Positions 2,801 to 20,991 of a DNA stretch of 36,441 bases are shown here, in pieces. Source of the stretch: Fibrobacteria bacterium (GTDB lineage Bacteria > Fibrobacterota > Fibrobacteria > UBA11236). The stretch covers positions 1-36,441 of the forward strand of contig JAJNBB010000021.1 of assembly GCA_021155885.1 (NCBI GenBank), in the 5' to 3' direction. Under the pieces are notes generated by a model. It saw only the letters and a program-made list of their open reading frames with translations. It made no database searches and had not been told where the DNA came from. Both the position numbers and the translations under genes were made by a program. Position 1 is the stretch's first letter. Each line of letters opens with the position of its first letter.

Positions 2801-2900
2801 GTTGTTTGTTGTTGGTTGTTGGAAAGCGCAAAACGCAAAAATCCCGACAGGATAGGGGAATTTTGGCGTTTCCAACAACCAAGTACCAACAACCAACAAC
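2801..2900. repeat. heptad-arm inverted repeat element 1
   Basis: Left arm with TTGTTGG-type heptads, right arm CCAACAA CCAAGTA CCAACAA CCAACAA; exact 14-bp inverted repeat TTGGTTGTTGGAAA (2812-2825) / TTTCCAACAACCAA (2869-2882). Confidence 0.85.
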
Positions 2901-4822: not shown

Positions 4823-4876
4823 GTGAACGGCGGCTGCGCCGCGGGTGAACGGCGGCTGCGCCGCGGGTGAACGGCG
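4823..4876. repeat. 22-nt tandem repeat, about 2.5 copies
   Basis: GTGAACGGCGGCTGCGCCGCGG twice (4823-4844, 4845-4866), then GTGAACGGCG; each unit contains a GGCG-GCTG-CGCC hairpin. Confidence 0.85.
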
Positions 4877-9203: not shown

Positions 9204-9273
9204 GGTAAGAGGTAGGAGGTAGGGTAGGAGGTAAGAAGCATTCATTCCTACCTCCTACCTCCTACCTCTTACC
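9204..9273. repeat. heptad-arm inverted repeat element 3
   Basis: Exact 20-bp inverted repeat GGTAAGAGGTAGGAGGTAGG (9204-9223) / CCTACCTCCTACCTCTTACC (9254-9273) with 7-nt internal periodicity. Confidence 0.9.
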
Positions 9274-9774
9274 TGCTTCCAAATCCTTCACCGCGAACAC
9301 CCGGAAGGGGGCATACCCCTGCGCCGTCCAGGCGGCGCCGGCCGTTTCGCTATCGGCCCCGTACGAAAGTTCCGCGAAACGGACCCCCTTCTCCCGGAAC
9401 CACTCCTCGGCCTGCGCCGTCAGCGATTTCCCGATTCCTTTTTCCCGAAACTCCGGCGACACCCACAGCGCGGCGATGCTTCCGACCTTTTCGGCGGTGA
9501 GCGCGGGCACGGAACTCTCCGTGATCTCGGCGAGCAGGCAGCCCACCTTCCTCTCGCTCCTCCCGTCCTCCTGGGCGATCAGGGGCAATTTTTCCGGGGA
9601 TTGCAGGAAGCCGAGGGCGTACTCGAATTCGCGCGGCGTAACGACGGCGGGCAGGCGAACGTTGTAGGCGCTTCCGGGCCGATCGCGCACGGAACGGGCG
9701 ATGGCGATCAGGCATTCGGCCAGGAAGGCCGCGTCGGCGGGGATGGCGGGGCGCAAGGTGAACGAGGTCGTCAT
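9262..9774 (-). CDS. GNAT family N-acetyltransferase
   Basis: 170 aa; VGSIAALWVSPEFREKGIGKSLTAQAEEWFREKGV acetyl-CoA binding motif. Confidence 0.9.
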   Translation of the reverse strand: MTTSFTLRPAIPADAAFLAECLIAIARSVRDRPGSAYNVRLPAVVTPREFEYALGFLQSPEKLPLIAQEDGRSERKVGCLLAEITESSVPALTAEKVGSIAALWVSPEFREKGIGKSLTAQAEEWFREKGVRFAELSYGADSETAGAAWTAQGYAPFRVFAVKDLEAGKR

Positions 9775-15559: not shown

Positions 15560-17101
15560 ATGCTTTTTTCTTCCCGCTTTCCCCTTCGGTCCCTCTTGCT
15601 GACGGCGGCCGTTTTCCTTGCTTCGGCGCACGCCGCGGAGGACTCCAAGGAGGCGCGCCCCAAGCGGGGCACGCTCGAGCTCGGCAAGGGTCCGCGCGCC
15701 CAGACCGACCCCGCCCAGGTGGGCGCGATCAACGGGCTGTTCGGCAAGGTCGTGGAGTCGATCACGCCGAGCGTCGTCTCCATCAACACCGAGAAAAAGT
15801 GGAGCGCCCAGCCGCAGCCCTTCGACCACCGCTTCTACGAGTTCTTCGGGCTGCCGAAGCCGGAGATTCCGGATGATCGTTCGCCCAAGAAGAACGTCCC
15901 CCTCGGCGGCGGTTCGGGCTTCATCGCCTCGAAGAACGGGCACATCCTCACCAACGCCCATGTGCTCGAGGGAGCGGACGTCGTGAAGGTGCGGCTCAAC
16001 AACCAGAAAACCTACACGGCGAAAATATTGGGCGTCGACAAGAAGGCCGACGTGGCCGTGATCCAGATCGACGCGCCCGCCTCGGAACTGAGGCCCGCCG
16101 CCTTCGGCGATTCCCGCAACCTCCAGATCGGCGAATGGGTGCTGGCCATCGGCACGCCTTTCGCCCTGCAGAACACCGTGACCTCGGGCATCGTGTCCGC
16201 CAAGGGACGCCGCGAGCAGTTCACCGGCGCCGATTCCTACCAGGACTTCATTCAGACCGACGCGGCGGTGAACCCAGGAAATTCCGGCGGTCCGCTGGTG
16301 AACCTGCGCGGCGAGGTGATCGGCATCAACTCGAGCATTTACACGCGCACCGGGGGTTATATGGGCGTGAGCTTCGCCATCCCGATCAACATGGCGGTGA
16401 AGGTCGCCGAGGATTTGATCTACGACGGCAGGGTGACGCGCGGTTACCTCGGCGTGGCCATCGACAACGTGGACGAGAACCTCGCGGGCGCCCTCGGCCT
16501 TCCCGGAAGCGCGGGCTGCCTGATCCGCGAGGTCACGCCGGGCTCCCCGGCCGCGCGCGGCGGACTCAAGGCGGGCGACATCGTGCTGTCGGCCGACGGC
16601 GTGGAGGTGCTCGACGCCGCGCACCTGCGCAACCTGGTCGCCGACCTGCGACCGGGCCAGGCTTATCCCTTCGAGACCTGGCGCGACGGAAAGAAGATCA
16701 CCCTGAGCCTCAAGGTCGGCGCCAAGCCGGGCGAGGAAGGCCAGGCCGAGATCATCCCGGCCACCGAGGGCGAAGACACGCGCGGGGGATTCGCGAGCGC
16801 GAAGCTGGGCCTGCGCTTCGAGGGCGTCGACGCGGCGGCGCGCAAGCGCCTCGAACTCCCCGCCGACCTCGCGGGCGCGGTCGTGACGGAAGTCACCGAC
16901 GGGTCCCCCGCGGCCGAGAACGGCCTCCTGGAGGGGATGGTCATCACCCATTACAAGCGCAAGCAGGACCCCGTCTTCCAGCCCATCCAGAACGCGAAGC
17001 AGCTTTCCGACGCCGCCAAAACCCTCGCCGCGGGCGACCAGATCGCCTTCATGATTTATAACAAGGGCAAGACGGACCTCAGGGCCTTACGTGTGAGATA
17101 A
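15560..17101 (+). CDS. DegP/HtrA-like periplasmic serine protease with PDZ domains
   Basis: 513 aa; GSGFIASKNGHILTNAHVLEGAD, DAAVNPGNSGGPLVNLRGEVIGINS, two PDZ-like regions, signal peptide. Confidence 0.95.
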   Translation: MLFSSRFPLRSLLLTAAVFLASAHAAEDSKEARPKRGTLELGKGPRAQTDPAQVGAINGLFGKVVESITPSVVSINTEKKWSAQPQPFDHRFYEFFGLPKPEIPDDRSPKKNVPLGGGSGFIASKNGHILTNAHVLEGADVVKVRLNNQKTYTAKILGVDKKADVAVIQIDAPASELRPAAFGDSRNLQIGEWVLAIGTPFALQNTVTSGIVSAKGRREQFTGADSYQDFIQTDAAVNPGNSGGPLVNLRGEVIGINSSIYTRTGGYMGVSFAIPINMAVKVAEDLIYDGRVTRGYLGVAIDNVDENLAGALGLPGSAGCLIREVTPGSPAARGGLKAGDIVLSADGVEVLDAAHLRNLVADLRPGQAYPFETWRDGKKITLSLKVGAKPGEEGQAEIIPATEGEDTRGGFASAKLGLRFEGVDAAARKRLELPADLAGAVVTEVTDGSPAAENGLLEGMVITHYKRKQDPVFQPIQNAKQLSDAAKTLAAGDQIAFMIYNKGKTDLRALRVR

Positions 17102-17102
17102 A

Positions 17103-17204
17103 CGTTGGGAGTTGCGGGTTGGGGGTTGGGAGGTAACACAAAACGCAAAGACGATTCGGCGGCTTGTTTTCCGCCCCCAACTCCCAACGACCAACCCCCA
17201 ACTC
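17103..17204. repeat. heptad-arm inverted repeat element 2
   Basis: Left TTGGGAG TTGCGGG TTGGGGG TTGGGAG; right CCCCCAA CTCCCAA CGACCAA CCCCCAA. Exact 12-bp inverted repeats 17103-17114/17178-17189 and 17118-17129/17191-17202. Confidence 0.87.
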
Positions 17205-17224
17205 TTTGTTATCTTCCCCTTCAC

Positions 17225-17440
17225 TCACAGGGAGTCCGCCCGGTAATGCCGGCGCGGACATAACGAGGAATCCCGTTAAAATCGGGAGCGAGCTCGTCGC
17301 TGTAAGCGGTTGAAATTCTCCGGCGCCTTGATCTTCGGATCGGGCGCGGCCACTGCCCCACGGGGGCGGGAAGGCGGAGGGTTCCGGGAAGCGGTTCACC
17401 GCGTCCCAATCCGCAAGCCAGAAGACTCACCTGCGGGTTC
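17225..17440 (+). promoter_or_regulatory. cobalamin (B12) riboswitch
   Basis: Ordered consensus blocks: GAGGAATCCCGTTAAAATCGGGAGC, CGCTGTAAGCGG, GCCACTG (17349-17355), GGGAAGGCG, CCGCAAGCCAGAAGAC (B12 box near 17415-17426). Immediately upstream of a TonB-dependent receptor. Confidence 0.95.
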
Positions 17441-17474
17441 ACGTGCTGCTCTTCGGGACGAGGGCGGACGGATA

Positions 17475-20827: not shown

Positions 20828-20949
20828 GGCAGCCTATGAAGGCGCCTAGTCGAAGCAGTTCCCGGGAACAGCCTGAGCACCAGGGTGTAGGGGCCTGAAT
20901 CACACCGCGGCACGCTAGGAGACCGGATCCGCGGGCTTTGCCCGCTTCA

Positions 20950-20991
20950 AAAACAAAACGCCGCGGGTGAAGCCCGCGGCGTTTTGTTTTT
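20950..20991. terminator. bidirectional rho-independent terminator
   Basis: Near-perfect AAAACAAAACGCCGCGGG-TGAAG-CCCGCGGCGTTTTGTTTT. Confidence 0.9.

Follow-up and report, generated by a model that had tools for sequence, protein, structure and literature searches.

Among the long simple repeats of bacteria, heptanucleotides are the most frequent, and an origin by polymerase slippage has been suggested (reviewed in PMC4679880). Simple heptad repeats and inverted pairs of heptads have been reported piecemeal, in Xanthomonas, Geobacter, cyanobacteria, and Beggiatoaceae, and were interpreted as quadruplexes, regulator sites, or slippage products. In Xanthomonas, the GGGAATC heptads occur mostly as four units and form 70-75 convergent inverted pairs per genome that are mostly intergenic, follow the preceding ORF at a mean distance of 28 nt with few in divergent gaps, and have their prominent copies at different genes in two species (Rehm et al., 2015, PMC4692102).

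Here we describe related elements in a contig of 36,441 bp (C79), the whole of which is referred to as the window, from a host genome (G000) that is a 2.59-Mb draft of 101 contigs and 87.5% complete. We compare it with its closest relative, the genus-mate G002 (98% complete), and with the further genus-mates G001 and G003. The purB protein of the window is most similar to records from Bacillota and Fibrobacter/Fibrimonadales (60-67% identity), which suggests that the host, an uncultured bacterium, is Fibrobacterota-like. The repeats are two-ended hairpins found at stop codons, and their family-specific ends are dispersed to many loci, usually without the core.

Three hairpin loci in the window

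An earlier note on this DNA had described three loci of one layout, inverted heptad arms around a core, with a heptad that differs per copy. All three are present, and each folds far more strongly than shuffled sequences (z of -5.5, -4.2, and -6.8 for elements 1, 2, and 3, respectively). Their parts are as follows.

Element 1, left arm, 2793-2822: G-rich, GTTGTTG family; outermost heptad degenerate, clear heptads from 2801
Element 1, core, 2823-2871: unique; inner edges AAAGCGCAAAACGCAAA and GGCGTTT lengthen the stem
Element 1, right arm, 2872-2901: C-rich, CCAACAACCAAGTACCAACAACCAACAACT; same sequence at four other loci with unrelated cores
Element 2, left arm, 17104-17132: GTTGGGG/GTTGGGA family; starts 3 nt past the stop codon of ORF 15560-17101
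Element 2, core, 17133-17173: unique; ACACAAAACGCAAAG close to the left edge
Element 2, right arm, 17174-17203: cobalamin riboswitch (17212-17448) directly after it
Element 3, left arm, 9204-9237: GGTAGGA/GGTAAGA family; one indel in the array
Element 3, core, 9238-9245: only ~8 nt
Element 3, right arm, 9246-9274: runs into the minus-strand ORF 9262-9774 at its 3' end (stop at 9262)

At the Rfam gathering score the elements are unmatched, and only the cobalamin riboswitch and a tRNA are found within the window. The riboswitch is on the plus strand, downstream of element 2 and ahead of the next gene, and its sequence is recognizable in G002 (L151), where element 2 is missing. The window also contains a perfect 22-bp tandem repeat of 2.5 copies at 4823-4876 (GTGAACGGCGGCTGCGCCGCGG) and, at 20949-20991, a perfect 19-bp inverted repeat with an A-run and a T-run (AAAAACAAAACGCCGCGGG / CCCGCGGCGTTTTGTTTTT), which is probably an ordinary bidirectional terminator.

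Abundance and period

The genome was searched with a strict scanner for two inverted 21-mers of period 7 no more than 160 bp apart, and with a relaxed, gap-based scan that covered 781 kb of the host (~30% of the genome) and 880 kb of G002 (~40%). In 369 kb of the host, the strict scan gave 27 elements versus 0 in Markov shuffles, and its yield from contigs 1-20 plus the window would correspond to ~150-200 elements per genome. The relaxed scan found inverted 7-nt-periodic arms in 64 gaps of G002 and in 87 of the host, the latter count not being an unbiased density as the host sample was partly picked for GTTGTTG matches. Among 852 gaps of 40-500 bp from both species, 141 have arms of period 7 and 7 of period 8, while shuffles gave 0.7 (<1) at period 7. 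The results of both scans against shuffles thus exclude a chance origin of the inverted heptad pairs. The search for further copies beyond chance that the earlier note had suggested therefore finds many of them, and the objection that there might be none fails.

Only period 7, and rarely period 8, occurs. Strict scans at periods 5 and 8-14 gave 0-1 elements, and the counts at period 4 (23 and 9) stem from shorter seeds and were not taken as signal. Elements with 8-nt units (e.g., AACAACAC) were seen in G002 at L187:10540-10690, L151:16652, L199:1455, L246:8299, L248:6761, and L200:5517, mostly in convergent gaps. Other relatives, together with loci from other phyla that carry purB, gave 0 elements in 1.23 Mb, and none were found in the ~48 kb and ~80 kb scanned of the genus-mates G001 and G003.

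Repeat-unit families

There are about eight unit families in each of the host and G002 genomes. The host units include GGTTGTT/AGTTGTT (41), AATGATG (9), and ACGGGGG/CGGGGGT (7), together with the ACAGCNN group, AGGAGGT/AAGAGGT, GTTGGGG, and ACTTAGG, and several of them carry stop codons. Those of G002 include ACGGTAG/AGGTAGT/AGTCGGT, AAATGAG, AAATATG/AAATCAG, AGTGGAT, ACAGTTT, ACAGCNN, AATTACG, and the octads. The commonest host family, GTTGTTG, comprises ~90 elements, and its pattern has 297 matches in the host and 0 in 19 other genomes, including those of the genus-mates. GTAGACG has 158 matches in G002, 4 weak ones in the host, and 21 array-like ones in G040, while ACAGC has 116 in the host, 48 in G002, and 0 in G001 and G003, and is also found with its own variants in G010 and G030. 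Hence, as shown by these match counts, the dominant families are private and turn over within the genus, and a few are shared.

Copies of the ACAGC family (L009:15514, L015:17060, L018:2941, L256:653, L268:8460, and L271:3735) are found for the most part in convergent gaps. Several of them have TAG at their ends on both strands, such that the stop codons of the two genes are provided by the element or overlap with it. An expanded array is present at L007:1832-1931, where ~14 direct copies of GTCCCCC lie beside CCTACCTC heptads, perhaps as a result of slippage within one arm.

Anatomy of arms and cores

The elements are ~80-150 bp in size, and GTTGTTG arms are ~30 nt, equivalent to four heptads plus two bases. 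Polarity is nearly constant, with a G-rich 5' arm in 81/85 and a C-rich 3' arm in 82/85 of the host elements, and 51/61 for each in G002. The left arms contain 8% C, and the arms are heptad arrays that are unable to fold on themselves. Within the heptad, variation recurs at the same positions (G>A at 7, T>C at 6, G>C at 4, and T>A at 3).

The cores, mostly 30-80 nt in the host and 40-110 nt in G002, are unrelated even where the arms are identical, as only 9/946 pairs beat the best shuffled score and 8 of these 9 do so because they share a GCGGCCACC-GGCCGC hairpin. This palindrome, which may be either a further repeat or a widespread terminator hairpin, is found in cores in both orientations at L273:8699, L266:2559, L256:1281, L023:6623, and L265:12847. 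One right arm is exactly common to five loci that have five different cores.

The earlier note suggested coordinated replacement or templated regeneration of the two arms within a copy. This is not borne out in the GTTGTTG family, in which the two arms of an element resemble each other no more than they resemble the arms of other elements (20.6 within versus 21.3 between, p = 0.98; other families were not significant), and hairpin-templated correction of one arm by the other therefore leaves no signal. At nine loci a marker heptad, GTACTTG, occupies the heptad 3 position in just one of the two arms (seven right and two left), while it is present in both arms at L044 and is paired with GTTTTTG at L004. 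Together with the absence of any raised likeness within copies, the one-arm pattern means that two distinct ends are copied between loci, rather than one arm templating the other.

A second proposal, that elements 1 and 2 are linked by the core 11-mer CAAAACGCAAA, stands only in a weaker form. With 3 copies in 2.59 Mb versus ~1.2 expected for a random 11-mer, and the third copy (C96) outside any element, the exact sequence was rejected as a family marker. It is one instance of a degenerate inner-edge motif, AACRC, that is enriched just inside the arms of the host GTTGTTG family (16/58 edges versus 5.6 expected) and in G002 (11/94 versus 4.6), without enrichment in the other host families (2/38 versus 1.6). 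Since the terminator-like hairpin at 20949-20991 has an edge that resembles it, the motif may be a feature of terminators and not a signature of the elements.

Placement relative to genes

Arm ends that face the 3' end of a gene lie within -35 to +30 of the stop codon in 94/100 cases in the host and 75/78 in G002, based on gene calls from our own codon-usage caller, in which single starts may be wrong and stops less so. Convergent gaps are enriched in elements (24/104 in the host and 20/102 in G002) and divergent gaps are depleted (11/109 and 6/101, respectively). This has a practical consequence for annotation, as arms overlap stop codons and are called as gene ends. Genes with elements on both sides read as housekeeping, by reading only (ispE, relA/spoT, cysK, pheT, and mnmE-like), and the idea of a transposase situated between elements was therefore dropped.

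Orthologous sites in relatives

At orthologous sites an element is either there as a whole or missing, and sites are reused by different families across species. Of the orthologous gaps of the host and G002, 11 have an element in both, 20 in the host only, 3 in G002 only, and 63 in neither (Fisher p = 1.5e-4), and for gaps of at least 50 nt in both species the corresponding counts are 11/13/2/27 (p = 0.0014), so that joint occupancy is far above expectation. Additional degenerate shared cases that were apparent by eye are left out of these counts. The unit differs between the two species at 11/11 shared sites, and no core homology is visible between host and G002 at these sites. The earlier observation that the architecture is kept while the arm sequence is not, with arms matching within a copy, thus extends even to orthologous sites.

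Empty sites were seen in relatives. Measured between the flanking matches, the L043 gap is 28, 66, and 66 nt in G002, G001, and G003 versus ~185 in the host, the L274 gap is 70, 103, and 136 nt in the relatives versus ~200 in the host, and the L012 gap is ~70 nt in G002 versus ~180 in the host. At L043 and L274 the comparison points to gain in the host genome, as three relatives are without the element and one genome has it. The purB gap that holds element 1 is ~55 nt in G003 and an unrelated 176 nt without heptads in G002.

Origin of the elements

We propose, as an interpretation that we favor on balance, that these are several families of small non-autonomous hairpin repeats, REPIN-like, that would be moved by a trans-acting activity and tolerated behind stop codons. 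Each element consists of two ~30-nt ends of about four heptads, with the G-rich strand 5' on both strands, around a short core. The putative activity might recognize the ends in single-stranded, folded form or as binding-site arrays, and insert them in either orientation without target duplication. Selection would spare mostly those copies at gene ends, where a hairpin may be harmless and might incidentally end or stabilize transcripts, and new families would arise or arrive and displace old ones within the genus. This interpretation is suggested by a copy number far above chance with period 7 only, by private families, near-identical arms with unrelated cores and the one-arm GTACTTG marker, and by empty sites, placement at stop codons, and shared slots with different units. 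Against it, no autonomous partner was found in the host or G002 and the flanked genes read as housekeeping, no target duplication is seen (0/24), and cores that do not travel with their ends are awkward for simple transposition. Reuse of a site could also reflect one old element that was retained while its sequence was replaced.

Known movers were searched for directly. The Y1 transposase/RAYT domain (Y1_Tnp, PF01797) gave 0 matches in G000 (87.5% complete) and G002 (98%) with control genomes positive, and the reverse transcriptase domain RVT_1 (retron, DGR, or group II intron) likewise gave 0 in both, and the two enzymes were rejected as movers on this ground.

It is possible, if rather unlikely, that the elements are bidirectional terminators or mRNA 3'-end modules selected at fixed sites, where structure alone is selected, the sequence turns over, and recombination between loci homogenizes the arms. 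Such modules would account for strong hairpins that start at stop codons, the enrichment in convergent and depletion in divergent gaps, and the occupation of the same gaps in two species, and small terminator-like core hairpins are slightly commoner in the sense of the upstream gene (5/31 plus and 0/31 minus in the ++ gaps of the host). However, these inner terminators are a minority, an ordinary terminator lies directly ahead of the element at L008:3640, some elements are in divergent gaps, at a site common to both species (L010:4815 / L238:6850), and homologous recombination cannot swap unrelated heptads. T-runs after the stem are independent of the direction of the upstream gene, and the signal is weak for the inner hairpins. 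The check for a terminator signal that the earlier note had called for thus gives no directional one. Wobble-tolerant changes are likewise independent of gene direction, on which ground RNA-directed selection through G.U pairs was rejected, and the lack of a directional T-run or wobble signal argues against a directed terminator.

We are more doubtful that a new type of activity places matching heptad-array ends, by writing or by insertion, on either side of an intergenic segment, such that arms spread independently of their contents and the heptad of a genome can change at sites that stay the same. If true, the writing of heptad ends would be neither fixed-sequence transposition nor slippage.

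Classical MITEs, internally deleted DDE transposons that keep the terminal inverted repeats, would explain intergenic, high-copy elements with inverted ends of fixed length and a variable inside in either orientation, but this origin is improbable. A target duplication of 3-9 bp was found in 0/24 clean copies, which argues against a DDE transposon, no long element, and no autonomous one, that carries these ends was seen among the 781 kb scanned of the draft host genome, and neither a heptad period conserved across families of unrelated sequence nor a constant G-rich polarity (81/85 left arms) fits such an origin. Local generation, in which slippage builds heptad arrays at each site and template switching copies arm onto arm (quasi-palindrome correction) to give each site its own unit, agrees with arms that match within a copy, with expanded arrays such as GTCCCCC x ~14 at L007, and with the slippage proposed for bacterial heptads (PMC4679880), but is very improbable given that one unit and its variant heptads are common to half of the sites, arms within copies are no more alike than between copies, and arm length is fixed near four units.

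Comparison with known systems

The parallels named in the earlier note, the STRRs and the REP/MITE palindromes, are incomplete, as the inverted GGGAATC heptad pair of Xanthomonas (PMC4692102) is the published system that comes closest. The host elements resemble it in their convergent G-rich heptad pairs of mostly four units and in their intergenic position close behind the upstream ORF (94/100 and 75/78 within -35 to +30 of the stop). Xanthomonas has one unit type, whereas the host has about eight unrelated units per genome, and only a minority of the units contain the GGG on which the quadruplex proposed for the Xanthomonas unit GGGNATC depends (GTTGTTG, AATGATG, and ACAGCGG are without it).

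REPINs, the RAYT-moved REP doublets (PMC8049555), are similar in having two inverted conserved arms, a short and highly diverse spacer, an intergenic location, and high copy number. They need a RAYT, however, and the host genome is without a RAYT/Y1 transposase. Their arms are palindromic REPs with a GTAG/CGTC tag, unlike the non-self-folding heptad arrays of the host (8% C in left arms), among which no tetranucleotide tag is common across units and there is no general GTAG tag. The paired hepta- and octanucleotide sites of Geobacter metallireducens (Aklujkar et al., 2009, PMC2700814) are similar in that three to five tandem 7-8-nt units form opposite-strand pairs at variable distance, in dozens of copies and several classes per genome. 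Their units are different and they were read there as binding sites of global regulators, and an analysis of site turnover was not found in the text of PMC2700814. The cyanobacterial STRRs and the Beggiatoaceae TAACTGA repeat (PMC4679880) share intergenic heptads with a patchy distribution, and TAACTGA has stop codons in all frames, as have several host units. They differ in that nearly every array is direct (in Maribeggiatoa, 169 sets are direct and one is indirect) and located upstream of start codons (PMC4679880).

The best reading is thus that the host elements are of the same kind as the Xanthomonas inverted heptads and REPIN-like, but multi-family, and depart from these systems in RAYT and in unit and quadruplex, with a mechanism that we infer. 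Our findings point to mobile hairpins with no known enzyme, and two genomes of one genus, each with about eight families and with private units and sites that are reused, represent a comparative system that is able to separate the quadruplex, regulator-site, and slippage readings.
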